Positions 40,351 to 53,630 of a stretch of DNA of 64,000 nt are shown one piece after another. The stretch covers positions 504,622-568,621 of the forward strand of contig NC_015315.1 of NCBI RefSeq assembly GCF_000193375.1, in the 5' to 3' direction. The position numbers were made by a program, and so were the translations under genes. Under the pieces are notes generated by a model. That model was not told the DNA's origin and did no database searches. It was given only the letters and a program-made list of their open reading frames with translations. Source of the DNA: Thermoproteus uzoniensis 768-20 (lineage in GTDB: Archaea; Thermoproteota; Thermoprotei; Thermoproteales; Thermoproteaceae). Position 1 is the stretch's first letter. Each line of letters begins with the position of its first letter.

Positions 40351-40535
40351 AGAGAGGCGACCGACTCTAATTTATAACATTTCCGTCCAGTAGTACCTAA
40401 TTTGTGAGAATAAAATATATTTATTTATTGACTAATATTATTTAATTATAAATAGAATAAAATTACTATAGGTTGATTCATCCAAATAATCGTCTTGGTG
40501 CGTATCTAAGGTGTTTTTATATGGTCGTTTTCGGC

Positions 40536-41102
40536 ATGGAGCACTTGTCCATATACCGCATGGCCGACGCCGTCCACGCACTGTTTGCGATCGATAGAGA
40601 GCCGTATGCGCTGAACGCATTTCTGAAGATAGCAAACAGCTGGGTGTTAAGAGCGCTTTCCGACGTTCCGGGCTCAGATCTCAGAAGACGTGCCTGTGGG
40701 GCGTTCATAAGACTGCTAGACAAAGCACGGAGCGTATTGGAAGCCCCGGCGGCCGTCAGAGCGCCCTGCTCGCCTAGAGGCGCGGCAAAGATAGATTCTA
40801 TCAAATACAGCGGTTGCGCCAAGTTTTTGGCAGAGTGGGGGGCGGAGTTTGTCTATAGGTTTGTCTACGACGAAAGGATAAGGGCTAGGGCCATAAAAGC
40901 CGCCGCGAGAAATCTGGCGGCCTATATGCAGTACGGCTTGAAAGTCGAGGGCCCGTATGCTGACGACTGGCTCGTCCTCGCCGAGGTTCCGCCGAGCCAT
41001 GAGCCCCGCGACGTCGTGTGGAAGCCCTTTATGGCCAGAATAAGGGTAGATATATTGCCTCAATGCGTGCAGCTGTCCGCGGATGCTAGGACATGGATGT
41101 AA
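40536..41102 (+). CDS. Unrecognised protein, first gene of cluster B
   Basis: A 188-residue soluble protein of unknown family. It opens MEHLSIYRMADAVHALFAID, is helical, and has paired Cys (APCSPRG near residue 78 and SGCAKF near 95) and a conserved-looking FVYDERIRARAIKAAARN stretch. ATG 40536 is preferred to ATG 40521 because the strongest A+T box (40511-40520) is closer to the leaderless distance. It overlaps the next gene by ten bases. Position at the head of the Tad-like operon suggests a machine-specific accessory. Confidence 0.6.
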   Translation: MEHLSIYRMADAVHALFAIDREPYALNAFLKIANSWVLRALSDVPGSDLRRRACGAFIRLLDKARSVLEAPAAVRAPCSPRGAAKIDSIKYSGCAKFLAEWGAEFVYRFVYDERIRARAIKAAARNLAAYMQYGLKVEGPYADDWLVLAEVPPSHEPRDVVWKPFMARIRVDILPQCVQLSADARTWM

Positions 41103-41794
41103 AGATCGATATAATAAATGCAGACAATCTCGCCGACTTCTTGAGGAAGCAAGCCGGAGCTACGGTGATAGATCCATATCCCGAAATCGTGCCGACGGCG
41201 CTGGAGGACAAACTGCTATATCTAGCTTCGTCAATATACGGAGGGATAAGCCCTCTACCGCTGTTCTCGTTCGAGAAAGGAGGGAGCCGTTATTTACTGT
41301 CGCCGAGGCTTCACAAGCTTTTGGCCGACCTAATGCCGGGCCTCAAGGTGCTCCATATAGAGGTCGTCGGCGAGCCGCAGTACCCGTTTACGGCGATCGC
41401 GCTCGTGCTCAGAGATCTCGGCATCAGCGCCGACGAGGAATTCCTCAAGGAGCACGTCTGTCCCGAGCTTGCCGCGTTGGAGGAGGACGACGTGCCGCTG
41501 GCACGCGCCATAAGATCCGCCGTGTCTAAATACCTGACGATAGCGCCGTCGGGCGCCTCGACGCGATCGATAAGGTGTCTCTGCGGGCTCTGCGAGGATC
41601 GCGGCAGTGGACTAGACCTAGACGCGCTGGCGTTGAGCTTGACGAAGCGAAGCGTGTCGAGGGCATACAGCCGCCGCGGGTTAACGGAACTAAACGACGA
41701 GGACAGAGCCATAATCATGCGAGTCATAAGAGGGCTTTCCATACCCGAATTCAGAAGGGAGCTCATCGATCTGCTCAACCGATATGAGGTATAG
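41093..41794 (+). CDS. Unrecognised cytoplasmic protein of cluster B
   Basis: A 233-residue protein with no family recognised. Regions: an N-terminal alpha/beta part (MDVKIDIINADNLADFLRK), a middle with helix and strands (KVLHIEVVGEPQYPFTAIAL), a Cys-rich loop RCLCGLCEDRG near residue 162 that might bind a metal ion, and a helical end with DEDRAIIMRVIRGLSIPEF. It overlaps both neighbours by about ten bases, so all three starts are coupled. Confidence 0.6.
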   Translation: MDVKIDIINADNLADFLRKQAGATVIDPYPEIVPTALEDKLLYLASSIYGGISPLPLFSFEKGGSRYLLSPRLHKLLADLMPGLKVLHIEVVGEPQYPFTAIALVLRDLGISADEEFLKEHVCPELAALEEDDVPLARAIRSAVSKYLTIAPSGASTRSIRCLCGLCEDRGSGLDLDALALSLTKRSVSRAYSRRGLTELNDEDRAIIMRVIRGLSIPEFRRELIDLLNRYEV

Positions 41795-42137
41795 ACGCGG
41801 CGACTTCGAGGCGTCGTTTGTGCGGATAGGCGAGGACAAGTACAGAGTCGAGTTGAAGTATAGGGGAAGGCCTCTGAAGATTAAGAAGATTGTTTTGGAG
41901 TATCTCGTCCACGATCGTTACAGATATGCCGTAGATCCCCACAGCGAGGTCCTCTACGTATTTATCTCGCGGGCGCCTCCCGTAGTTGTCAAGTCGGCAT
42001 GGAGGTCCTCCAAGATGATAGCGAAGGCCAAGGACGGCGCCCTGGCCGCCGTCGCCGACGTTGTCCTCGACTTTGCCGAGGCCTACATGACGGCGTACAG
42101 GGCCAACGCCCTCGATAGATTATTCCATGAGGACTAA
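41784..42137 (+). CDS. Unrecognised small protein of cluster B
   Basis: A 117-residue basic protein (MRYRRGDFEASFVRIGEDKY at the start; beta strands KYRVELKYRGRPL and YVFISRAPPVVVK; a helical end with LAAVADVVLDFAEAYM). No family recognised. It overlaps the preceding gene by eleven bases and the MinD-like gene by eleven bases. It may be a partner of the ATPase that follows, as is common for small genes upstream of CpaE/MinD homologues. Confidence 0.6.
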   Translation: MRYRRGDFEASFVRIGEDKYRVELKYRGRPLKIKKIVLEYLVHDRYRYAVDPHSEVLYVFISRAPPVVVKSAWRSSKMIAKAKDGALAAVADVVLDFAEAYMTAYRANALDRLFHED

Positions 42138-42831
42138 GTTCGCGGTTTTCTTCTCGGTCGACGGCGGCGTGGGCAAGACGACGCTGGCGCTGGCCACCGC
42201 TTTTGAGAAGGAGAGGGTCCTCATAATAGATGCCGATTGGGAGAAGGCCGATCTATCCTCGATCTTCGGCGTCCCCAAAAAGCCCGGATGGCTCGCCGGC
42301 CGGTACGGCAAGGACGTCTACGTGCATAAGGTTCGGCCCAACCTCTACGTGATACCCGGCTACGAGGCGGCTATGCTTTACCAGTCCGGCAAGATAGGCG
42401 ATTCCGAGCTCTTCGAGGCGCTCTACGACACCCTAGTCGCGCTTCCCGACGCCTTGGCCGAGGAGCGCCTTCCGGTGGACACCGTGATCGTCGACACGCC
42501 GAAGGCGTTACAACTGACGTGGATTGAGGCCTTGCAGAGGAAGCTCAAGGCGCTTATGTACTTCGTAGCCGATAGGCGGCTTGTCACGAGGATAGCGGAT
42601 GTCAAGATGCAGATATACGGCAGATACATGCGCTACGCCTCGCTTATAGTGGCCAACATGCTGGAGAAGGGCGACGAGAAGGCTCCCGGTATAAAGATGG
42701 TAAACGCGTTCTTGACGAGGGTTAAGATGCCCTCCGATTACTCAGCCGAGAGGATATACAAGGCGATCCTAGGGGATCGGCGAAATAGGGAGGCTCTGTC
42801 CTTGCTAGTCAAGTGGATAAAAGAGAAGTAA
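42127..42831 (+). CDS. MinD/CpaE-like ATPase with an atypical Walker A
   Basis: A 234-residue SIMIBI-class ATPase of the MinD/ParA/CpaE group. The deviant Walker A is seen as VDGGVGKTTLALA (residues about 11-23): the second Lys is present, but the signature Lys at the start of KGG is Asp. The next conserved element, VLIIDADWEKADLSSIFG, is a normal switch I, and DTVIVDTPKALQL is switch II. In Tad pili the CpaE/TadZ protein has such a fold and localises the machine. It overlaps the small gene before it and is followed at one base by the CpaF-like ATPase. Confidence 0.85.
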   Translation: MRTKFAVFFSVDGGVGKTTLALATAFEKERVLIIDADWEKADLSSIFGVPKKPGWLAGRYGKDVYVHKVRPNLYVIPGYEAAMLYQSGKIGDSELFEALYDTLVALPDALAEERLPVDTVIVDTPKALQLTWIEALQRKLKALMYFVADRRLVTRIADVKMQIYGRYMRYASLIVANMLEKGDEKAPGIKMVNAFLTRVKMPSDYSAERIYKAILGDRRNREALSLLVKWIKEK

Positions 42832-42832
42832 G

Positions 42833-44434
42833 ATGTCTTTGGCGGGTGCCCTGTTCGCCAAGGCCGATAACTCGTTGTTGGACAGGTGCGCGTTGTTCAA
42901 GAAAGGCGTGATAGTCTACCGCAATTACGCCACAGACATCTGCATAACAGACGACGGGGAGTACGTGGTGGTCGATCCGCAGTTGCCGGAGATTCTCGAG
43001 AAGGCCCTCGCGTTAACCGCGCTTCGCGGCGCCGTGCCGCCCGATTACGGGGAATACGACAAGGCCATAAAAGACGCGTTGCTGGCGCTGGCGCCGAGCC
43101 GAGGCGTAGCCGGCTGGCGGTGGCACAGAAACGCCTTGCGGACTTATAGAGAGCATAGAGAGCTCGTACACTATTTCCTAGACAGATGGAGCGGGCGCGG
43201 CGAGTTCGGCGGCTACGGCGTGTTGGAGGCGCCTATGAGGGACGATCTGCTGACCGAGATCGCCATACCGCAACCCCTGGCGCCTCCAGGCAGGTGGAGC
43301 GAGCTTCCGCGTAATCCGTTAGAGCTCTTGGACAAAATATACGCGGAGATGGTCGAGCTGGGGCGCTACCGGCGTGTCGTCGCGATCCGCAACGAGGCGC
43401 GGATGCCCACCAACGTGGTGGTGCCAGAGGCCTTCATGCCCATATTGGTGAAGAAGCTAGTGCCGAGCTTGACCCTTGAGCGGCCGTTCCAGACCAGGGA
43501 AGATCCCGTATATCGGCTCAGGATAGCGGCGGATCTGCTCGAATACAACGTGAATATAAGGAAGATGAGCGAGCCGCCGCGGCCTTCGGCAAGCCTCATT
43601 AAGGTGTACGAGCGCCCGCGCCGGCTTGAGGACTCGGAGAGCCGGCCGAACGTCCAAGATCTTTCGGCTCTAGAGGTCTTCGCGTTGGCCACAATAGCTG
43701 CCGAGGCTAGATGGACTGTGATATTCTCAGGGGCCATGGGCACCGGCAAAACCACGCAGCTGAACCTTCTGCTCTACTTCATCCCGCCGTGGATGCAAGT
43801 CGTCATCATAGAGAGAGGCGCGCGGGAGATCTGGGCGCCTCTGGAGGGCCAGATCCTCCACATATCGGTCCCCTCGGAGTCGAGGCTCATGGAGGCTCTG
43901 GATCAAGCCCTCCGCTACGGCACCATGGCCACCATAGTGACTCTGGCAGAGGCCAGGACCAGCCAGGAGCTCAACGTCTTGGTCTCCTACAAGCTGACGG
44001 GCCACGGCGGGCTGACGACGATGCACGCCGACACCATACACGACGCCCTTCTACGTATAAAGAGGTCGGGCGCCCCTGTCGAGGCCCTCGCAAACACCAT
44101 GATTCTGCAACTAGGAGTATCCGGAGGCGAGAGGTATCTAAAGGAATGGAAAGCGTTGGTAGCGCTTGGCGGAGAGGTGGCGGAGGCGCCTGTGGCCGAC
44201 GTGTTGGGCCTTCTGAACGCCTACACTAAGTCCACATACGATACAAAGATCCTCGACGAGGTGAAGACGAGGGCCGGTTTGCTTAAGGCAATTGCGTCCA
44301 AGGAGCTGGAGCCCCTCGAGGCGCGCGAGGCCGTACTGAAGCTATTCTCCCGTAGAGAGATATCGGTGGTCGACGACGCCGTGAAGCACGGCTATCAGCT
44401 GGAAGGTAGATATTTCCATGAAGCTCAAGTTTAG
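42833..44434 (+). CDS. CpaF/VirB11-type secretion ATPase
   Basis: A 533-residue T2SS/T4SS-type ATPase that powers pilus assembly. Residues 1-260 form a lineage-specific N-terminal region; the motor domain follows, with Walker A SGAMGTGKTTQ (near residues 299-309), an Asp/Glu box VVIIERGAREIWAP, a Walker B-like ATIVTLAEARTSQE and the His box TGHGGLTTMHAD. Walker B is altered from the usual GEVRG-type sequence. ATG 42833 lies one base after the MinD-like stop. Its platform partner is at 45085. This is the energy source of cluster B. Confidence 0.9.
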   Translation: MSLAGALFAKADNSLLDRCALFKKGVIVYRNYATDICITDDGEYVVVDPQLPEILEKALALTALRGAVPPDYGEYDKAIKDALLALAPSRGVAGWRWHRNALRTYREHRELVHYFLDRWSGRGEFGGYGVLEAPMRDDLLTEIAIPQPLAPPGRWSELPRNPLELLDKIYAEMVELGRYRRVVAIRNEARMPTNVVVPEAFMPILVKKLVPSLTLERPFQTREDPVYRLRIAADLLEYNVNIRKMSEPPRPSASLIKVYERPRRLEDSESRPNVQDLSALEVFALATIAAEARWTVIFSGAMGTGKTTQLNLLLYFIPPWMQVVIIERGAREIWAPLEGQILHISVPSESRLMEALDQALRYGTMATIVTLAEARTSQELNVLVSYKLTGHGGLTTMHADTIHDALLRIKRSGAPVEALANTMILQLGVSGGERYLKEWKALVALGGEVAEAPVADVLGLLNAYTKSTYDTKILDEVKTRAGLLKAIASKELEPLEAREAVLKLFSRREISVVDDAVKHGYQLEGRYFHEAQV

Positions 44435-44684
44435 GAACAACGATGGAGATCCTGAGATCGGCCTCGACGGCCAGCTAGACTTAGGGCTGGCCGATCGCGA
44501 CGACCGCGAGGGCGATTGGGCCCTCCAGCTACTTAAGTCCCTACAGAGGGCGCCGCAGGAGATAGTCGACAGGCTAGACAGCGAACTGCTCGGGGCTGTC
44601 TTGAGGGAAGTCGCAAAGTCGGGGGGCGACGCGGGCGCGGTGGCGCGGCTGGCGCTCTCGTTGCTCGAGAGGTGTGGGAAATGA
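44418..44684 (+). CDS. Small acidic protein of cluster B
   Basis: An 88-residue acidic protein (MKLKFRNNDGDPEIGLDGQL at the start, helical DNA-free appearance later, WALQLLKSLQRAPQEIVDRL). No family recognised. It overlaps the ATPase by 17 bases and the next gene by four bases, so it is coupled on both sides. Probably a cytoplasmic regulatory or adaptor component of the machine; inference from position only. Confidence 0.55.
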   Translation: MKLKFRNNDGDPEIGLDGQLDLGLADRDDREGDWALQLLKSLQRAPQEIVDRLDSELLGAVLREVAKSGGDAGAVARLALSLLERCGK

Positions 44685-45088
44685 AGGACTGCGAGAAGTT
44701 GATAGAGGACGGGTACACGAGAGAGGCCGCCGAGGAGTTATGCGATACGGCTAAGGCCATAGGGATTAAGCCGTCCAGACTGGCCGCGGCTGCGAGGAGG
44801 CTTGAGAAGGAGGGCATAGCGTTGTTGCCCTCCGATTGGCTTGTGGTGAAGGAGGTGTTGGATAAGGGCTTCTCGTTGTCCACTGTCGTGGACTACATAG
44901 TGAAAAGGCATAGGGCCGGCCTATCGCCGTCGCAGATAATCGAGGAGTTGCCTATAGCGGCTAACAACTCAGTCAAGAGAAGCCATATCTTGGGCAACTT
45001 GCTTAAGGTGCTGGAGGCGCCCGAATACTTCGTCGTGGAGGAGGACGGCGCCAAGAAGAGCTTGTTGCAGTTATTGAGGCGTCGATGA
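44681..45088 (+). CDS. Small helical protein of cluster B
   Basis: A 135-residue helical, charged protein of no recognised family. The segment GIKPSRLAAAARRLEKEGI and the later AGLSPSQIIEELPIAANNSVKR look like winged-helix or HTH-like helical hairpins, but no DNA-binding assignment is possible. ATG 44681 forms an ATGA overlap with the previous gene and 45085 with the next one. Probably cytoplasmic. Confidence 0.55.
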   Translation: MKDCEKLIEDGYTREAAEELCDTAKAIGIKPSRLAAAARRLEKEGIALLPSDWLVVKEVLDKGFSLSTVVDYIVKRHRAGLSPSQIIEELPIAANNSVKRSHILGNLLKVLEAPEYFVVEEDGAKKSLLQLLRRR

Positions 45089-46308
45089 ACAGGGAGGAGT
45101 TCTACATATACATAGCGCCGATCTTCGCAACGTACCTATCCCACATGTCCTCCGTCGAGGCCTTGAGGCGCACGGCGGCCGAGGCGGAGAGCCTAGACCG
45201 AAAACACTCGCGCGAGCTGTTGCTAGCCAGCTTGACCCCGAACCCCGCCTCGTTGCTCTCCTCCGATGGGCTCGCCGTGGTGAGGCAGTACGGCTTCGCC
45301 GTATCTCAAGAAGAGGCGGGAGTCCCCCGCCAAGTCCTCGTGCAGTCCTTTCTGCAGGCTACTAAGTCGATAGCGCTGGGCCGTATAGAGGCCGCAATGC
45401 AGCACTTCGTGGGGCTCTTCTCGTCTCTGTCCAGCCTTATGTTCGCGCCGCTGTTATTGCTCTTCCTATACGCGTACGGCCTTCTGCCTCTCGATCTCTT
45501 CTCGTTGCTGGGCATAGCCGGAGTCTTCTCGTCGATGATAGGCCTATTGATATACAAGTCGATGCCGAAGGACCTATCGCCGACCAGGACCTACGGCCGC
45601 TCCATTTTCTTGGCGGCCTTGGCCGGGGGCGCGGCGATCTATTCATCCATTGTCTGGTCTCTTCCAATATCGCTCGGCGCCGTTGCGGCCGGCGCCGTGT
45701 TGGCCATCTGGCTTCTGGCCACAAAACGCGTGGGATGGTTTAGGCTGGCCGCCGAGATACCTGCCATGTTGAGGGACTTCGCCTCGCGTATATCCCAAGG
45801 CATCCCCGCAGATCTCGCGTTGAGAGAGGTATCGGCGACCTACAAGGTGGCCTGGATGATAGCGTACTTCTACGAAATACCGTCTCTCATGTTCTCGTTG
45901 GCCAGAGCCATGTTCAACGCGGTGAGCTGGGCCGGGCCGAGCCTAGAGGCCGTAGACTACGTCCAGACAATTCTTAGCGAAAAGGAGAGAGGGCTGAAAA
46001 GGGTCACCGCGCTCACCGCCATGTTCATAGCTGTATATATAGCGGCATCGGTGATACTGGTATATTCGCTTGCGGTATCTGTAACGGCGCTCCAAGCCGT
46101 CCCGTCGACAGGACAGTCGTTAATGTACCCGCTACCTCCCGACGAGGTGAAGTACGCGGCCGCGCAACTGCTGTCGGCTATGGTCACAGGCTTTGTCGCC
46201 GTGATGTTGCTCCCCTCAAAAGGCATGTGGACTGGCCTTCTAGCAGGCGGCCTCGCCGGTACGTCGTTCTTCTACCTAACGACGACGTTGTGGTCGCTTT
46301 GGGCATGA
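45085..46308 (+). CDS. TadC-like pilus assembly membrane protein
   Basis: A 407-residue T2SS-F/TadC-family platform protein, shorter than the 524-residue relative at the left edge. Hydrophobic helices are seen near residues 115-150, 165-185, 190-212, 305-330, 355-380 and 385-405, separated by cytoplasmic F-like segments (about 1-110 and 215-300, with LREVSATYKVAWMIAYFYE). In Tad systems this protein sits in the membrane beneath the CpaF ATPase. ATGA overlap with its upstream gene. It is the third machine component in this operon. Confidence 0.82.
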   Translation: MNREEFYIYIAPIFATYLSHMSSVEALRRTAAEAESLDRKHSRELLLASLTPNPASLLSSDGLAVVRQYGFAVSQEEAGVPRQVLVQSFLQATKSIALGRIEAAMQHFVGLFSSLSSLMFAPLLLLFLYAYGLLPLDLFSLLGIAGVFSSMIGLLIYKSMPKDLSPTRTYGRSIFLAALAGGAAIYSSIVWSLPISLGAVAAGAVLAIWLLATKRVGWFRLAAEIPAMLRDFASRISQGIPADLALREVSATYKVAWMIAYFYEIPSLMFSLARAMFNAVSWAGPSLEAVDYVQTILSEKERGLKRVTALTAMFIAVYIAASVILVYSLAVSVTALQAVPSTGQSLMYPLPPDEVKYAAAQLLSAMVTGFVAVMLLPSKGMWTGLLAGGLAGTSFFYLTTTLWSLWA

Positions 46309-46823
46309 GGGGCTTCTCGGCATTGAAACAGATAGTCGTAGTGGCCGCGTCGCTCGCGGCGATTGCCGTGATCGCGCTGGCGGTGTATAGGGCTACTATT
46401 GAAGTGAGGTCCGCATATCCTCCAGCCGAAATCGCCGTAGCGATAAAGTCCTTCAAGCCCGTGGCCGTCCCTGATTATGTGCCTGTCTATGTGGTGAAAG
46501 TCCACTATCAATTCTCTGGAGGACGCTACGTGTTGTTGCCTGGCCCCTCACCTCCAGCATGTAGCGACTGCGTGCCGCCGACAGGTTGGCTCTACGCCGT
46601 CTCGTTTGGAGCGAACGCATCGCCGATATACGGGGTCTACTACAGTGCGGCGAACTACACTATGTACGTCGGGAGAGCGGTGGTCGTGGTGCCCTATTTC
46701 AATAACGGCACACTTTACTATCTATACCCCATGTGCGCGGGCGGCTATCGTTTTTCCGAGAAGTCGGTCCATCTAGATAATGTACCTATATCTATTACTA
46801 TAATTTTACTAGATTGCTCATAA
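46305..46823 (+). CDS. Pilin-like protein with MRG leader, cluster B
   Basis: A 172-residue protein starting MRGFSALKQIVVVAASLAAI: R-G then a hydrophobic helix (about residues 8-28). The exterior part carries sequons, three Cys (CSDC near residue 86 and CAGG near 146) and a Tyr-rich end. ATGA overlap with the TadC-like gene ties it to the machine. It is probably a minor pilin or pilin-like initiator. The following 93 bases (46,824-46,916) are A+T-rich and probably hold the promoter of the next gene. Confidence 0.72.
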   Translation: MRGFSALKQIVVVAASLAAIAVIALAVYRATIEVRSAYPPAEIAVAIKSFKPVAVPDYVPVYVVKVHYQFSGGRYVLLPGPSPPACSDCVPPTGWLYAVSFGANASPIYGVYYSAANYTMYVGRAVVVVPYFNNGTLYYLYPMCAGGYRFSEKSVHLDNVPISITIILLDCS

Positions 46824-46916
46824 TAAATTTATAATATTAACTAAGAATAAAAATATAATATATTTTTATCATAAATAATGCATCTGTCGTAGTACGAGCT
46901 TATTGCTGTTTTTTCC

Positions 46917-47378
46917 ATGAGACGTCTAAAGGGACAGGCAGGCGGCATAGACGCGTTGATAATCATAGCCGTGGTGGTGGCCGTCGCCGCCATAATCGCG
47001 CTGGCCATGATGCGGATGGGCCAATCGGCCTCTGCCAATACTAGGGCACAGGTAATAGCCACCGTAGGTAGCAGGGTCATGACTGTGGAGGTCCAAGTCC
47101 TCAATGGGAGGCTCAACGCGCTCTATCTCCAGTACTGGCAACAAGGCGGGACGCCAGGCCAGCCTGTCAGCGGTACGTGCTACTACAACGGCACAAACGG
47201 CTTCGTCGAGAGCAACTCCAGTAGCATACAGCTCTACACAGGCCAATCCGCCGTGTGTTACTTTAGCCTTAACAATCTAGCATACGGCACCCAGTACAGC
47301 TACGTCATATACGGCGTTGACTCCAGCGGCAGGACTATCCAGTTGGCCCGCGGCGTGTTCACGGCGGGCGCCACCTAG
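46917..47378 (+). CDS. Pilin-like protein, probable major subunit of cluster B
   Basis: A 153-residue protein with the leader MRRLKGQAGGIDALIIIAVV: basic residues and K-G then Q-A-G-G before the helix, a longer class III-type leader than its neighbours. The hydrophobic helix covers residues 12-32. The outside domain has NGT and NSS sequons, two Cys (TCYY and AVCY) and beta-sandwich-like repeats. It is set apart from the preceding gene by 93 A+T-rich bases, so it may have its own promoter, as is common for a major pilin. Convergent 4-base overlap with a DUF192 gene. Confidence 0.72.
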   Translation: MRRLKGQAGGIDALIIIAVVVAVAAIIALAMMRMGQSASANTRAQVIATVGSRVMTVEVQVLNGRLNALYLQYWQQGGTPGQPVSGTCYYNGTNGFVESNSSSIQLYTGQSAVCYFSLNNLAYGTQYSYVIYGVDSSGRTIQLARGVFTAGAT

Positions 47379-47662
47379 AGGCAGACGATCTCTAAAAAAT
47401 CCCCTTTTTTCGGCGGCCTCTCCTCTTTCGGCAACTCGAGGGTATGCACCGCCCTCGGCTCTCTGTGGGTCTTCCAAGGCTTGAGGTACAGGACGTCCAC
47501 CACGCGCATCCTTTCGTCGAGGAATACTGCCCATATGGGCTCCAGCACGAGGAACGTGTGTATCGAGTTCACCCCAATCAAAAGGATCGGCCTGGGTCTG
47601 CGCAACATCAAGCCCAGCCCGCGCCTCAACCGATCCCTATAGCATTTTGCGTATATTTCCAT
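47375..47662 (-). CDS. DUF192-family protein
   Basis: A 95-residue DUF192-type protein. The family pattern is seen as LGLMLRRPRPILLIG near residue 16, then NSIHTFLVLEPIWAVFLDER and MRVVDVLYLKPW, though the usual FWM/N-T motif is altered to HTFLVLEPI. It lies antisense within the pilin cluster, with its stop four bases inside the pilin gene at 46917. Function unknown. Its opposite orientation breaks the cluster, so genes from 47690 on need their own promoter. Confidence 0.75.
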   Translation of the reverse strand: MEIYAKCYRDRLRRGLGLMLRRPRPILLIGVNSIHTFLVLEPIWAVFLDERMRVVDVLYLKPWKTHREPRAVHTLELPKEERPPKKGDFLEIVCL

Positions 47663-47689
47663 GGGAATAAGTAGAGGAGAGGGCGGGCC

Positions 47690-47968
47690 ATGGACGTCGA
47701 CGTGCTGGCGATAGTAGTCGTCATGGCGCTGTCGCTCGCCGTGTTGGCGCTTATACAGCCGATGGAGCTATCGTCGCCCTCGCTGTCGGCGGTTTACAGA
47801 TACTGGCCCCAATACTATAACTACACGATCCGCGGCGACGTAGCCGCCTTGAGGCCTCTGCTATCCGGGCTGACGTGCTGGCTCTACGCAAACGGCAGTT
47901 GGGTGGAGATATCGAGATCGGGAGGCCTTGGCTTGTCAATATCGGTGTTGAACTTAACCTGTAGATAA
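47690..47968 (+). CDS. Small pilin-like protein, cluster B
   Basis: A 92-residue protein with a hydrophobic helix right after MDVDV (residues 5-23, VLAIVVVMALSLAVLALIQ), then a short exterior part with NYT, NGS and NLT sequons and two Cys (TCWLYANG, NLTCR). A Shine-Dalgarno-like GGAGAGGG-type sequence lies upstream, and no R/K-G precedes the helix. First of six genes with short ATGA or few-base spacings (47690-53630). Minor pilin-like; no family recognised. Confidence 0.68.
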   Translation: MDVDVLAIVVVMALSLAVLALIQPMELSSPSLSAVYRYWPQYYNYTIRGDVAALRPLLSGLTCWLYANGSWVEISRSGGLGLSISVLNLTCR

Positions 47969-47971
47969 TCC

Positions 47972-48298
47972 ATGGAGGAGCTGGTAGAGCTCGCCTCAGT
48001 GCTGGCCGTTGCCTCGCTGTCCGTTCTATTGACCTTCTTGACATATACCCACTTCACCTCGTGGAGTCTGTGTGAGGCGGCGCGGCTCGCCTTGAGCCAC
48101 AACGGCTCGGCGTTCGTAGTCTCCGCGTTCGGCGAGATCTCGTGCGGAGGGTCCGGCTGCTACCTCGGTTGCGGCTTGTTCGTGCCGTCGTATCGGATAT
48201 ACTACGTCGACGGAAGGCCGGCGATAGGCGGCGTGCCCGGCGTCGTGGTGGTCGGCACAACCCCCGACGGAAGGCTGTACATCCTGCCGAGGGGATGA
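47972..48298 (+). CDS. Small pilin-like protein with Cys-rich tail, cluster B
   Basis: A 108-residue protein with an N-terminal hydrophobic helix (residues 6-26) after MEELV, followed by an exterior domain with five Cys, including CGGSGCYLGCG, and an NGS sequon. No family recognised. It starts three bases after the preceding stop and shares an ATGA overlap with the next gene. The Cys pattern suggests disulfides in the extracytoplasmic part. Confidence 0.68.
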   Translation: MEELVELASVLAVASLSVLLTFLTYTHFTSWSLCEAARLALSHNGSAFVVSAFGEISCGGSGCYLGCGLFVPSYRIYYVDGRPAIGGVPGVVVVGTTPDGRLYILPRG

Positions 48299-48765
48299 GA
48301 GGCCAGATCTCGTCGCCAGTGGCCGCCTCTATTTTCGCGCTCTCAGTAGCGGTGTTGATGCTCTTCGCCTTCATGAAGCTTTCGTCGTTGCCTCACGGCG
48401 GCTATCTAGCGCCTTTATCGCCGCCGCAGGGCGGTCCTGCCAGGTGGATCCACGTGTTCTACTACAACGGAGATTTCTGGGCGGTCGATGCGGAGACGTC
48501 GTCCCCTACGCTGGCCGAGGCGGCCGTTGGGCTTGACGGGATCTGGGTCGCCACATTCTACCTATGGCCGGGCGGGTACAACTGTACTTACAACTCCTCC
48601 TTCGTGCTTGACGGCAAGCCAATATCCGTTTCGAACCCGTTGAGGATAGGGCCAGATCCCTACTCCGGGCTCTGGTGCCCGCCGCCGTGGAGAGGCGGAG
48701 GCGTCTGTTCGGCCGCCGTTGTGGAGTCTAGGGGGAGGCTTCTCCTGGCTAGATGTATTCCATGA
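48295..48765 (+). CDS. Pilin-like protein with MRG leader, cluster B
   Basis: A 156-residue protein starting MRGQISSPVAASIFALSVAV, with R-G before a hydrophobic helix. The outside part is Pro/Trp/Tyr-rich (HVFYYNGDFWAVDAE), with NCTYNSS sequons and four Cys. The ATG overlaps the previous stop (48295), removing doubt about the start; the longer frame upstream reads out of frame over the previous gene. Minor pilin-like. Confidence 0.7.
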   Translation: MRGQISSPVAASIFALSVAVLMLFAFMKLSSLPHGGYLAPLSPPQGGPARWIHVFYYNGDFWAVDAETSSPTLAEAAVGLDGIWVATFYLWPGGYNCTYNSSFVLDGKPISVSNPLRIGPDPYSGLWCPPPWRGGGVCSAAVVESRGRLLLARCIP

Positions 48766-49853
48766 GAGGAGTACAGATAACGACTACCCTGATCGCGATT
48801 GCAACGTTGGCGGTGGCGGCAACCGTCGCAATTACCTTAATGGTGGTCGGCGTGACGTCGGCGGATCTTCCGAGCGCCACGGCGTCGGTGACCGAGCAGA
48901 ACGGCGTAGTCGTGGCGTCGATAGCCGTGTTGCGGGGAGCCCTATACGGCGTCGCGCTTATGTACAGAGCGCCTGACGGCTCGATGTGGTATGCGAGGCC
49001 GATATACTGTCTCGGCGTGCAGACGCGGACGACGGCTACCTCGGCCCTGCTCGGAAAGCCTCTGTACGCGGGCCAGGGAATAACATGCGCCTTCCAGATG
49101 TGGTATCCGGCCGCCGGCGACTACGCATTCGACCTTCTAGGCTTCGGAGGAAGGAGCGCCGTGAGCATCGCGAGGGGGTTTGTGACCGCGGCTCGGGCCA
49201 ACGGCTATTCCGGCCAACTGCCGGCGGGAAATCTCTACGGCGTGGGGCAGACGCCGTCCATAGGACTTACTAGGAATGGGTACAACTTTACGTCTATCTC
49301 TACGTATTGGCCAGGCCGCGGGTATCTAGCCGTCGAGGTTAAGTGGGGCTATACTAACTCGACATGTGTAGCCGACGGGCTGTATGTATCCCTATTCGTC
49401 CCCCAGAGCGCCCGTAGCCTCGTCGCGCCTTCCGACGAGGGTCTCGGCGTATTGCCGTTCGGGGGCGCCGACTACGTGCCCGCGGGAGGCCCCCTGCAGC
49501 TCTTCGTACAGCTCAACCCCTACGACTACGGGCGCGAGGACGGATCTTTTGAGTTCGCGGTGATGAACTCGTCGGGAGGCAGAGGCGTTGTAAGGCCGGC
49601 CGGCTTCAACGGCCTCAAGTCGTGGCCGACGGAGATCTGGACCACCTATCTGCTATACAACTCCTCAAGCAATACTCTGTTTGTCGAATGGACGGCGCCC
49701 GGCGCCTTCAGCGAGGCGTATACCTATAATCTGACTAGCTACGGCTTCGCCAGACCTCCGGCAGGGAACTACGCCGTCGTGATAGGGGTCGCCAACGGCG
49801 GATGTACTGCCGACTGGCGCGTGTACGACTACGCAATAGCGTCAGGGGGGTGA
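48762..49853 (+). CDS. Large pilin-like surface protein with MRG leader, cluster B
   Basis: A 363-residue protein opening MRGVQITTTLIAIATLAVAA: R-G, then the helix, then an exterior domain rich in Tyr, Gly and Val with several sequons (NFT, NST, NSS, NLT). Two halves: residues 40-165 beta-rich and 170-360 containing YWPGRGYLAVEVKWG and PSDEGLGVLPFGG segments, which look like a carbohydrate-binding or adhesin fold; no family is recognised. Start at 48762 by ATGA overlap; the frame could extend to 48753 by three residues. Confidence 0.7.
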   Translation: MRGVQITTTLIAIATLAVAATVAITLMVVGVTSADLPSATASVTEQNGVVVASIAVLRGALYGVALMYRAPDGSMWYARPIYCLGVQTRTTATSALLGKPLYAGQGITCAFQMWYPAAGDYAFDLLGFGGRSAVSIARGFVTAARANGYSGQLPAGNLYGVGQTPSIGLTRNGYNFTSISTYWPGRGYLAVEVKWGYTNSTCVADGLYVSLFVPQSARSLVAPSDEGLGVLPFGGADYVPAGGPLQLFVQLNPYDYGREDGSFEFAVMNSSGGRGVVRPAGFNGLKSWPTEIWTTYLLYNSSSNTLFVEWTAPGAFSEAYTYNLTSYGFARPPAGNYAVVIGVANGGCTADWRVYDYAIASGG

Positions 49854-50188
49854 TGGACCTATACATAGTGTCGGCCGCCGTCTCTCTAGCCGTCGCCGCC
49901 GCGATCGCCGGCGCGTTTCTTACGCACGTGGGCGTCCAGGCCGGCGCGCCCAGATGCTCAGATTGCGTATTTTACGTCGAGGGACCCGCGGCGCTGGTCC
50001 AGACGAACGGCTCCGCGTATCTGGTCCGCGGCCCCGTGCTCGCAAACTCGTCGATTATGGCCCAATACGCCTGGGCCTACGGACCCGACGGGCGCCCTCT
50101 AAGGCCCGGCGAGGAGCTCGTGTGCCCCGTCCTCATGCGCGTCGAGGTGGTTGACGGAATAGCCTACGCCTCGTGCGTCGGGCGATGA
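49853..50188 (+). CDS. Small pilin-like protein, cluster B
   Basis: A 111-residue protein with MDLYIVSAAVSLAVAAAIAG as its N-terminal hydrophobic part (helix residues 5-24), then an exterior with CSDC, two sequons (NGS, NSS) and a further two Cys. It overlaps the previous stop by one base and the next ATG by four. It lacks R/K-G before the helix, like the other two short members at 47690 and 47972. Minor pilin-like. Confidence 0.68.
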   Translation: MDLYIVSAAVSLAVAAAIAGAFLTHVGVQAGAPRCSDCVFYVEGPAALVQTNGSAYLVRGPVLANSSIMAQYAWAYGPDGRPLRPGEELVCPVLMRVEVVDGIAYASCVGR

Positions 50189-50760
50189 GAGGCCAGTGGT
50201 CTCTTGCATACGCCCTAGTGGCCGTCGCCGTCGTGGCCTGGACCGCGGCAGTCCTATCGACCTCGTACCCGCGCTACGTCCCGATAGACTACCCGCAGGT
50301 GCTCTACGAGCTGAAGCTGGAGTCCCTCACAGCTTCACAGATCCACTGCATCACGTACAACGCCACGCCGTCCTCGATTTACTGCAACGGCTCTGCCCTA
50401 TACCTCTCGGGGGCCAATAGATCTCTGCTGGTGTATTATCGAGGCGGCCTCGTGGCGGCGCGTCTGTCCAGATCGTGGGGGCCTATAAACTACACCCTAT
50501 ATCTGGCCTTGGTAAACTGTACTAAGGCGATTGCGCAAAACGGCGGCGTGGCGCGGGTCTACCACATTGCGTTGTCGTCGACGCTCGACTATATGCCCGA
50601 GCTGTACGTCAACGCCACTGCGGCCGAGATAGCGGTGTTGAGCAGAGATAGCTACTATCTATCGCCGCAGAGGGAGTTCCTCGTAGTGGTGTCTAGAGGC
50701 TCCCACGTAGAGATAACGGACTTCCCTGTGTCGTTGACAATCAGTTGTGATATTCCATGA
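50185..50760 (+). CDS. Pilin-like protein with MRGQW leader, cluster B
   Basis: A 191-residue protein starting MRGQWSLAYALVAVAVVAWT. The M-R-G-Q-W opening closely matches M-K-G-Q-W of the giant cluster A protein at 11201, linking the two clusters. The outside domain has many sequons (NAT, NGS, NRS, NYT, NCT) and four Cys. ATGA overlaps on both sides. Probably a pilin-like subunit; function not known. Confidence 0.7.
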   Translation: MRGQWSLAYALVAVAVVAWTAAVLSTSYPRYVPIDYPQVLYELKLESLTASQIHCITYNATPSSIYCNGSALYLSGANRSLLVYYRGGLVAARLSRSWGPINYTLYLALVNCTKAIAQNGGVARVYHIALSSTLDYMPELYVNATAAEIAVLSRDSYYLSPQREFLVVVSRGSHVEITDFPVSLTISCDIP

Positions 50761-53630
50761 GGTGGCTAGTCCTAACGCTGGCGATTGCGTTTTTGACCTG
50801 GGCGGCAGTTCAGGCCCCGAATTGTCAGCTGGTAAACGCCACCCTCATTTCGAGCGGCGAATTGCCCCCAGAAGCGCCTATTTCGATAAGCATAGGTCTA
50901 CACTTTCTAGGCATACCGAGAGCCGCGTCGACACCTGCGATCTACGTGGCGGGCGATATGTCGTACGTAGCCAGCTCCGGCGGCTACGCCAGCTACGGCC
51001 TTACGAGAGGGTCTATATTTGTAGCAGGTAATCCCCTCCCTTCAAATGGAAAATTTAATATAACAATATTTATAAATTATTATACTTATAAATATAATAC
51101 ATATTATGTAATATATAATTGTTCGGGAAAAATAGAAGAGGGCACTCTGGCGAATGTAACCGAGGTATCGCAGTCGATATACAGGGATGGAGCCGGCGGA
51201 GCGATACCGGGCATTGACTGGAGCTATGCACGGACCGTGTATCTGCCAGCCCCGTATAGGTCTCTGCCGACAGACTGGTATCTCGGGCCCAGCCTAGACG
51301 ACTACGTCGAGATATCAGTGGTTGTCAAAGAGCCGAGTGTCTTGAGCGGGCTCTCAGTCGGGCAGATAAACGAGGGCACTCTCGGGATAAGAGCAGTCGT
51401 CAACTCGACGTCGCTGGTCTTCGGCGACGTCGCGCGGGGGCTGCCGCAGAGCAACCCGTTTAAGACGAGGTACTCGCCGAGTAGCTTCAGCTGGAGTCCC
51501 CAGGGATCTGACGGACACCTTTCGGGCTACCTCTCGTTGGATGGGGACTTCCCGAGCTCTGTGAGCCTACAGGCGTGGCTCGTGCCGGAGTATTGGACGG
51601 CGCCGTTGGAGATAGAGTCGCCGAAGGCGCCTGGAGTCGTCGCCCTCCGCACAAGCTATATCCTGCTCAACCAGACCGCCGAGGGACTTGTGGCTCTGTT
51701 CGATCCGACCTACAGGGTCGTGGCGGAGACCTACGTGTCGCAGTGGCCCAACTTCGCGGCGGCGGTCAGCCACCTGCTGGCCGTCGCCTCGCCAGGCGAA
51801 TTGCCCTCTCTCGGCCCGTTCGCGCTGTCGCCGTTGGCCTACGGCTCGGGCGGGTGGGAGTACTACAACCTGTACACGTACGTAGAATTGTCCGCCGACG
51901 CTCTCTGGGAGCCCTATCTGCGTTTCGGCTCCGCCGAGATCTGGATCGAAGGAGGCTCGGCGAACGTCTACGTGCCGGCTGGAGGCGTCGCGGACTTCTA
52001 CGCGTCGTTGCTGGGATATCTGATCTACGGAGGCCACTACATAGGCTACTCGCCTAGAGGCTACGGCGGCTTTTCGGGCTATGTCGCGACAAGCCCTCTA
52101 GGCGGCAACGTGGCTTGGGACGGACGCTACGGAGGCGTTACGCTCACGGAGATCGGCGGATACGGAGCGACGTCGCGGCTGATCCCGTGGTCCTATCCGG
52201 CCCCCTCGGATCTGCCCACTTACGGCCTCGCGATGCTCCTATCGCGTTGGTCCTACTTGGCGTCGCCCGACTACGTATGGGCCACGCTTGTCGGCGGCTA
52301 TTACCAGTCCACAGGCCCAGCTATCGACCCCATCACCGGCCTCACGGGCGCGGCCCAAGGAGCCGTCTTCGTCTCGCCGCCGCCCAAGGGGCCCGCCTAT
52401 CCGGCCGACGTGTACGTCTACGTGCTACAGCCGTGGGGTTCGGCGAGCCAAAGCGCCGCGTCGTACGTGTCGAGCGTAGTGAGGGGAAATAACGGCCAGC
52501 CCGTCGGGGCGATTCTGTGGTCGCTGGTGCCTCTGGTCCCATGTAAGTCGCTCTTCTGCGCCGATCCTCAGGAGGCTTGGTGGAACGGCGAGTTCTCAGG
52601 GAACGCGGCGCTGAAGGGAGCAGCCTACGGGCTGGCCGTCATGTGGCTAGGCAAATCCCCCATAAGCGTAACTATCTACGTCAACGCGAGCGGCGCGCGG
52701 TACGTCAACGGGTCTTGGGCGGGCTCGACGTGGCCGACGGCCGGGACCTACAACATCTCCCTCGGCACATTCCAGCTGGAGCCCTACAAGCCGTACTTGG
52801 TGGTGCCGGGCGTTGCGGTCCCCCTCCCCAACTCGTCCGGTTGCGGGCTGGCCCCAATCCCGCCGGGCTGGCTCCTCGCGCCCGCGGCCGACGGCTTCTT
52901 CTGGGTAGAGTTCGTAACCGGCAAGACGGCCAGCTACGGGTACTACTACACGACTGCGCTGGCCGTGAACTACACCGTATCCGACGACTTAGGCCGTATC
53001 CTCCGTCCCGGCGAGATCTTCGCCGCCACTTTCTGTCTGGCGATAAACGGCACGAGGCCGTATCCCCCCTCCCTCGCCAACTGGTTCCCGTCCAGTTGCG
53101 CGCCGTTGGGCTGGCTTCCGCTGAGCGTATCGAGGGGCCCCTACGTGTATTGGAGGGCGGAATGCTCCGACGGCCAGGCGAGCGTGCGGGGCGATCTGGG
53201 GCCCTACGCTGGTTTCGACGTGATGTTGGGGTCCGTAGAGCTGATGCGCGGCTTCATATCATATGTATATATAAAGCCATATATTCTTGTAAATAGTTCT
53301 GGTATCTATATATATGTAGACAGTAATCTCAGTAAATATATAAAAGGCTACTATATATATCTTAATAGAAACGGGACGTGGATGCGTCAATATTTCTGTC
53401 CAGGAAACGTGATATATATGCCGTGGAGAGTGGCCGAGAAGCTGGCCATATACCCCTGGGATCCCGTCAAGGTACTGCCCGCGCTGAGCCTCACGGCGCT
53501 CACCAGGTCGGATATAGTGTACCCAATACCTCAGTGGTCCACCTTAGCCAACTGGTGGTCTCTGCCGACCGGTGCGGGGATGTACAGCGACCTCTCCGCG
53601 CTCGGCTCGCTCGGCTGTATCCCCGCGTAG
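50757..53630 (+). CDS. Giant secreted surface protein, last gene of cluster B
   Basis: A 957-residue protein with an N-terminal signal-like helix (MRWLVLTLAIAFLTWAAVQA) followed by an Ala-Gln site that looks like an ordinary signal-peptidase cut, not a pilin leader. The remainder is rich in Tyr, Ser, Gly and Pro with many sequons and scattered Cys, and with long YGGY-like repeats (GYSPRGYGGFSGYVATSP); no family recognised. Two in-frame islands are exceptionally A+T-rich: 51,051-51,120 has only 4 G or C in 70 bases and 53,261-53,370 has 24 in 110. Codon use in them is almost all AT-ending. ATGA overlap with the gene before it. Confidence 0.75.
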   Translation: MRWLVLTLAIAFLTWAAVQAPNCQLVNATLISSGELPPEAPISISIGLHFLGIPRAASTPAIYVAGDMSYVASSGGYASYGLTRGSIFVAGNPLPSNGKFNITIFINYYTYKYNTYYVIYNCSGKIEEGTLANVTEVSQSIYRDGAGGAIPGIDWSYARTVYLPAPYRSLPTDWYLGPSLDDYVEISVVVKEPSVLSGLSVGQINEGTLGIRAVVNSTSLVFGDVARGLPQSNPFKTRYSPSSFSWSPQGSDGHLSGYLSLDGDFPSSVSLQAWLVPEYWTAPLEIESPKAPGVVALRTSYILLNQTAEGLVALFDPTYRVVAETYVSQWPNFAAAVSHLLAVASPGELPSLGPFALSPLAYGSGGWEYYNLYTYVELSADALWEPYLRFGSAEIWIEGGSANVYVPAGGVADFYASLLGYLIYGGHYIGYSPRGYGGFSGYVATSPLGGNVAWDGRYGGVTLTEIGGYGATSRLIPWSYPAPSDLPTYGLAMLLSRWSYLASPDYVWATLVGGYYQSTGPAIDPITGLTGAAQGAVFVSPPPKGPAYPADVYVYVLQPWGSASQSAASYVSSVVRGNNGQPVGAILWSLVPLVPCKSLFCADPQEAWWNGEFSGNAALKGAAYGLAVMWLGKSPISVTIYVNASGARYVNGSWAGSTWPTAGTYNISLGTFQLEPYKPYLVVPGVAVPLPNSSGCGLAPIPPGWLLAPAADGFFWVEFVTGKTASYGYYYTTALAVNYTVSDDLGRILRPGEIFAATFCLAINGTRPYPPSLANWFPSSCAPLGWLPLSVSRGPYVYWRAECSDGQASVRGDLGPYAGFDVMLGSVELMRGFISYVYIKPYILVNSSGIYIYVDSNLSKYIKGYYIYLNRNGTWMRQYFCPGNVIYMPWRVAEKLAIYPWDPVKVLPALSLTALTRSDIVYPIPQWSTLANWWSLPTGAGMYSDLSALGSLGCIPA

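Follow-up and report, generated by a model that had tools for sequence, protein, structure and literature searches.

Introduction

Subclade 4G of the archaeal type IV pili (T4P) was described in 2016 from Thermoproteus and Pyrobaculum by Makarova, Koonin, and Albers (PMC4858521). That paper assigns to 4G a diverged secretion ATPase (arCOG05609), a diverged TadC (arCOG05611), a MinD-family ATPase (arCOG05608), and a pilin (arCOG05612), along with a pair of small helical proteins of the cytoplasm, numerous cysteine-rich minor pilins, and a large secreted protein. Here we analyze a cluster of this kind in Thermoproteus uzoniensis 768-20, at positions 40536 to 53630 of a 64,000-nt stretch of contig NC_015315.1—the whole of this stretch is called the window—with a focus on the three genes that head it, U1, U2, and U3. 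Labels such as U1 and p8 denote genes of the cluster, and coordinates are positions in the window; the arCOG numbers are those given in PMC4858521, and the placement of the 4G clade is taken from the trees of PMC4858521 and PMC6668835.

Tad/Flp pili and their archaeal sister group, the EppA-dependent pili, resemble 4G in having an ATPase, a platform protein, and a MinD-family partner; they differ in being marked by two platform genes (PMC6668835) and in the receiver domain that CpaE/TadZ bears (PMC13170226), neither of which is found in the 4G cluster. The accessible part of the 2019 comparison places group 4, which includes 4G, with the bindosome and Ups pili, and it reports a match between hidden Markov models (HMM-HMM) of bacterial TadZ and arCOG05608, the family that Makarova assigned to the 4G MinD (PMC6668835). 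Since the same paper puts 4G in group 4 and yet reports this match, the link to Tad is distant and already published.

Two systems of DNA transfer are also relevant. The Ups pili of the Sulfolobales belong, like 4G, to the published group 4 and partner a DNA-import system, but their loci are simple (upsX-E-F-A-B), with neither MinD nor a U trio. Ups pili and Ced cooperate in the Sulfolobales, and the Thermoproteales are reported to lack both (PMC9905601, PMC11868833, as far as their text is available). Ted, the Thermoproteales exchange of DNA system (TedA/TedB/TedC), differs from 4G in being VirB4/VirB2/VirB6-like (PMC9905601). We found no text that links 4G with Ted in the accessible portions of the open-access literature, including the Ted paper and the only two papers that mention these arCOG numbers. 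The finding we report is such a link: judged by profile similarity, U1 is a leader common to 4G and Ted loci, and this is new here.

The Cluster as a 4G Pilus Operon

The cluster is T4P subclade 4G of the Thermoproteales, a known system. Its ATPase is a diverged PF00437 protein whose close relatives, in a pairwise search that covered the order, are confined to the genera Thermoproteus and Pyrobaculum. The locus also holds a distinct FleN/MinD-family ATPase, a PilA-type pilin, cysteine-rich pilin-like proteins, a large secreted protein, and two conserved small cytoplasmic proteins, s1 and s2, that lack predicted transmembrane segments; in all of these it agrees with the 2016 description, whose available text is silent on U1–U3, on Ted, and on the altered motif of MinD described below. 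Of 19 Thermoproteaceae genomes, 14 contain the ATPase, and ATPase, MinD, s1, s2, platform, and pilins keep the same order—a recurrence far beyond chance. A preliminary description of this DNA had announced many novel parts. Because 4G is already published, the cluster is not a new machine, and that claim survives for U1–U3 only; the outline of a pilus machine with an ATPase, a platform protein, a MinD-type ATPase, and linked cytoplasmic unknowns was correct, as were the positions and order of the open reading frames (ORFs) named.

The source genome, a single contig of 1,936,063 bases from the Thermoproteus-Pyrobaculum group, carries the first nine genes of the cluster on one strand in the order U1, U2, U3, MinD, secretion ATPase, s1, s2, platform, and p1. 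U1 (40536..41102, +) encodes a cytoplasmic leader protein of 188 aa, with alternative starts possible at 40521 (ATG) and 40473 (TTG); U2 (41093..41794, +; 233 aa) overlaps it by 10 nt, and U3 (41784..42137, +; 117 aa) shares 11 nt with U2 and another 11 nt with MinD. MinD (42127..42831, +) is followed after 1 nt by the ATPase (42833..44434, +), and the ATPase, s1 (44418..44684, +), s2 (44672..45088, +; GTG start), the platform gene (45085..46308, +), and p1 overlap by 4–17 nt. Given this spacing—every neighboring pair from U1 to p1 is separated by 1 nt or overlaps by 4–17 nt—the nine genes look like a single operon. No membrane segments are predicted in U1, U2, U3, MinD, the ATPase, s1, or s2.

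The MinD/ParA-type ATPase has an unusual switch motif. All 13 aligned members of its family carry Asp (DGGVGKT) where the deviant Walker A motif (KGGVGKT) has its signature Lys; the P-loop Lys is kept except in one member, which has Arg, and the Walker B region is kept as well. Among 81 genomes of the phylum, the family was found only in Thermoproteus and Pyrobaculum; searches of viral contigs gave no match, and searches of plasmids gave one weak match (E 3e-4, Cupriavidus).

The secretion ATPase is of the PF00437/VirB11-GspE type (E 8e-12), retains its Walker A, Walker B, and His motifs, and ranks fourth of six PF00437 matches in the source genome. The platform protein matches neither the T2SSF nor the archaeal TadC profile, and its position and topology (six predicted membrane helices and two cytosolic stretches) fit the diverged TadC-family platform reported for 4G.

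Where bacterial Tad loci have two platform genes (TadB and TadC), the cluster has one; where CpaE/TadZ is fused to a receiver, the 234-aa MinD begins right at its P-loop and gave no receiver match in Pfam or NCBIfam, and its best solved profile match is P. furiosus MinD. Compared with solved structures, the ATPase profile lies nearer to archaeal GspE (1.7e-12) and FlaI (6e-9) than to CpaF (1.7e-5), and in NCBIfam it scores 36.0 bits with BasE vs 25.8 bits with the TadA model, so by profile score the ATPase is not of the CpaF/TadA type. An EppA-dependent pilus, with two platform genes and a dedicated EppA peptidase, was likewise considered and is ruled out by the single platform gene and by the presence of only one A24 peptidase match in the genome.

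U1-Type Leaders in Pilus and Ted Loci

Three cytoplasmic genes of similar size directly precede MinD in the Pyrobaculum 4G loci too. An iterated U1 profile seeded with these leaders reached Ted loci, which we recognized by TedB. Across 45 genomes of the order, U1 was found at 22 places in the Thermoproteaceae (one of them in two pieces), 12 at the head of 4G loci and 10 at the head of Ted loci; two small remnants and a single copy from a different family were found in addition. U1-type leaders are therefore not pilus-specific; the proposal that U1–U3 are good candidates for new components of the machine is supported as regards their tie to it. In the other family of the order (G021), homologues of U1 and U2 precede a 901-aa gene and what may be a TedA-like membrane protein (L085, 2757-4543).

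The Ted loci vary in how much they share with 4G. In P. calidifontis, U1 leads the Ted locus ahead of a ParA-like gene and TedB (TedC of this species differs from the PDB 8dft pilin at one visible position), and U1-U2-U3 leads the Ted locus of Thermoproteus G013, a 76% complete genome in which no 4G ATPase was detected. U1 also leads Ted loci without a 4G MinD at L071, L072, and the P. oguniense origin locus. Some species share more: in two related Pyrobaculum genomes the order is U1-U2-U3-MinD-s1-s2, then a winged-helix-like gene, a P-loop gene, and a 137-aa gene ahead of TedB, with HerA-like, SWIM-type, Rad-like, and TedC genes behind it. The same order would result if a joined 4G-Ted array lost its ATPase, platform, and pilins. 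One such array exists in P. oguniense, where it runs on a single strand between U1 (491.7 kb) and TedC (near 518 kb); in Bin S10 a second is inferred from two contigs whose ends overlap exactly over 127 bp. An extra small U3-like gene follows U3 in some Ted leader regions (L052, L054).

In the U1 tree, 4G and Ted copies interleave with four context changes, at least three of them forced by well-supported branches, and in 200 bootstraps one context never formed a single clade. In the MinD tree, the MinD of five Ted loci nests within the Pyrobaculum pilus MinDs, and that of the sixth (L056), on a long branch, is left unplaced.

Divergence and Selection in the U Trio

The trio is the variable part of these loci. 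Comparison of the Ted copies in two Pyrobaculum sister genomes gives 21–53% identity for U1–U3 and 89–96% for MinD; for TedB, identity is 95–97% among four of the five copies and about 62% when these are set against the fifth. Nucleotide similarity falls near the U1 start and resumes at the MinD start. Each copy keeps its own U version across the species split (in G010 C4, 87.5% identity to the G003 counterpart over the whole U region). Such divergence beside near-identical neighbors points to a possible role of U1–U3 in specificity.

Recent selection on U1 and U3 of the Ted loci is purifying, and the ratio of nonsynonymous to synonymous substitution rates (dN/dS) is 0.16-0.19 for the Pyrobaculum positional counterparts of the trio, with the value for the Ted U2 left out, vs 0.05 for MinD. 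Between the window and a congener, the proportion of nonsynonymous differences (pN) in U1–U3 is 0.26-0.35, well under the 0.66-0.80 for synonymous differences (pS); U1–U3 are therefore real genes. Congeners keep the trio, with U2 in three Thermoproteus genomes and U3 in one other Thermoproteus. As the preliminary description had held, the three are cytoplasmic proteins of no recognized family: profile searches against Pfam, NCBIfam, PADLOC, and PHROGs gave nothing significant, with insignificant Pfam matches for U3 only.

The window's own trio stands further off. Its U1 profile scores 25.0 against the U1 family of Pyrobaculum 4G and Ted loci, a value reached by none of 300 column shuffles (maximum 21.2), and the alignment, to which hhalign gives a probability of 6%, covers the GL-x-V-x-GPY-x3-W stretch. 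This is suggestive of distant homology between the window U1 and the Pyrobaculum family. The window trio is thus a third version, alike in position and size but highly diverged in sequence, with weak indications of homology for U1 only.

Pilins, Secreted Protein, and Variant Loci

Downstream of the platform gene lie eight pilin-like genes, all on the plus strand: p1 (46305..46823), p2 (46917..47378), p3 (47690..47968), p4 (47972..48298), p5 (48295..48765), p6 (48753..49853; 366 aa), p7 (49850..50188), and p8 (50173..50760). All eight products have one N-terminal hydrophobic helix, with a second hydrophobic stretch in p6, so the count in the preliminary description is borne out in this respect. 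A basic-Gly class III-like site is found in five only—p1 (MRG), p2 (RRLKG-Q), p5 (MRG-Q), p6 (MRG-V), and p8 (MRG-Q)—and is absent from p3, p4, and p7. The probable major pilin is p2, which is PilA-type (Pilin_N E 0.004). The series is also interrupted by a small minus-strand gene (47375-47662) with a weak DUF192 match (E 0.04), which is kept in the locus of Thermoproteus G015. The cluster ends with the 957-aa protein (50757..53630, +), a candidate adhesin with ten Cys and the Sec-type signal expected of the secreted protein that had been proposed. Further on, the sole A24 match in the genome (58965..59567, −; E 2.8e-5 / 9e-5, falling slightly short of the Pfam cut-off) is the probable pilin-processing prepilin peptidase.

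Several other loci differ from this layout. In G015, the 4G ATPase gene is broken near codon 156 by an insert of ~7.5 kb that carries a TnpB-like ORF and a Cas3-resembling HD-domain ORF (L038, 8419-17555); the remaining cluster is intact, so the machine was probably disabled there recently. In Thermoproteus sp. UBA157 (L045/L059), a Pyrobaculum-type 4G cluster adjoins the remnant of a Thermoproteus-type cluster; the remnant retains MinD, s2, and an unassigned ORF but has lost ATPase and platform, and the site is enclosed by Usp and UPRT, the same genes that border the cluster of the window. Of the two 4G loci in P. oguniense, the one at 627 kb (L039, 627-629 kb) has an ATPase match with an in-frame TAA. 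A pilus locus of another type (L035, 77-844 and 2331-3116) has two separate T2SSF platform genes flanking its ATPase, unlike 4G. Just outside the window's left edge lies another PF00437 ATPase (G000:C1:503481-504230, −).

Weighing the Explanations

The cluster is a 4G operon whose cytoplasmic genes are kin to a module found at the head of Ted loci as well, and we tentatively favor, with somewhat less than even confidence, the reading that this module is a shared control and that 4G has an Ups-like role. Two otherwise unrelated machines have the same leader, and sometimes the same MinD-s1-s2, so a control or docking complex would be the simplest mechanism. The pilus would be built by a GspE/FlaI-type ATPase and a single platform protein, with PilA-type p2 as its pilin and pilin-like proteins as minor subunits; the lone A24 peptidase at 59.0-59.6 kb would process them, and the 957-aa protein would be the adhesin. 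MinD, whose switch motif is altered, would join s1, s2, and the U trio in the cytoplasmic docking/control complex, which may set the place or time of activity of the secretion machine; MinD would act as the switch and s1 and s2 as its small partners. The conserved part (MinD, s1, and s2) would bind the machine, and the variable U1–U3 would give specificity. The stronger form of this proposal seems rather unlikely to us: that MinD with its lysine-less switch, s1, s2, and a swappable U1–U3 specificity cassette make up a module that plugs into two unrelated machines, a type IV pilus and a conjugation-type IV secretion system (T4SS), with 4G as the missing Ups counterpart for DNA exchange in the Thermoproteales.

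Several results weigh against the favored reading. The link between the window U1 and the U1 of Ted and Pyrobaculum loci is weak, and profile comparison of the window U2 and U3 with Pyrobaculum U2 and U3 gave no signal; the idea that the latter pairs are relatives is rejected on present data. Nor do the window U2 and U3 have detectable relatives in Ted loci. AlphaFold models of Pyrobaculum U1 (pLDDT 55.6, 6 sequences) and U2 (64.5, 4 sequences) are too uncertain, and a Foldseek search of the predicted Pyrobaculum U2 against the PDB returned nothing with E <0.7. Seven genomes that are at least 96% complete have 4G without a TedB match—the source genome, with none at E<=1e-15, is among them, and the window holds no conjugative pilin—and in a further genome, 99% complete, Ted is present but 4G is not. 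An obligate link between 4G and Ted is therefore disfavored.

A real possibility, though one we doubt, is a plain 4G adhesion or biofilm pilus in which the U trio and MinD-s1-s2 are dedicated accessories, and Ted loci recombined copies in without any shared function. Several loci in Thermoproteus and Pyrobaculum share a Usp gene close to the cluster; this suggests that 4G was inherited vertically, a history that would suit a plain pilus, as would the seven genomes without Ted. The nesting of five Ted-locus MinDs among pilus MinDs is what capture predicts, and the 2016 paper, in its available text, treats 4G solely as a pilus (PMC4858521). The behavior of U1 fits less well: it leads Ted in G013 and in loci without a 4G MinD, and its three or more context switches exceed a single capture.

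U1–U3 could also be an incompatibility, exclusion, or immunity cassette of Ted-type putative mobile elements, of which each co-resident copy needs its own version; the 4G locus would have gained the trio when a pilus locus joined such an element. We consider this unlikely. It would account for the four or more Ted copies of one genome that bear strongly different U1–U3 beside near-identical MinD, for the version that each copy holds across the species split, and for the constant position of the trio as the operon's first genes. Against it, selection at the recent time scale is purifying and not diversifying (dN/dS about 0.05-0.19), PADLOC contains no defense match for U1–U3, the trio has long been retained in 4G loci without Ted, and the MinD family has neither a viral-contig match nor more than the one weak plasmid match.

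Less probable still, in our judgment, U1–U3 may be transcriptional or translational regulators of the operon they head, outside the machine itself. They are always first, are cytoplasmic, and head two different machines, and s2 has weak HTH-like matches (best E 0.01); but U1–U3 match no DNA-binding family in Pfam or NCBIfam, and the trio tightly overlaps or adjoins the MinD or ParA gene.

The Tad-like pilus of the preliminary description, with MinD as CpaE/TadZ and the ATPase as CpaF on an archaeal branch near the ancestor of bacterial Tad, is very improbable: the published TadZ–arCOG05608 match and the order MinD-ATPase-platform speak for it, and for a CpaE-like MinD in the distant sense, but the single platform gene, the receiver-less MinD, and an ATPase nearer to archaeal GspE/FlaI than to CpaF rule it out as a Tad pilus, and the accessible 2019 text places 4G in group 4 and not with Epd/Tad.

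Implications for DNA Exchange in the Thermoproteales

On the favored reading, in which 4G and Ted share a control or docking module, the 4G pilus would most likely gather cells for DNA exchange, as Ups does for Ced in the Sulfolobales, while also being kept without Ted, as in the source genome. Because Ups and Ced cooperate and the Thermoproteales are reported to lack both, 4G is a candidate partner of Ted. It would be unusual, if true, for a T4SS-like machine and a type IV pilus to have a module in common. For cell pairing in the Thermoproteales, where Ups is absent and Ted is present, the 4G pilus offers a concrete, testable candidate.

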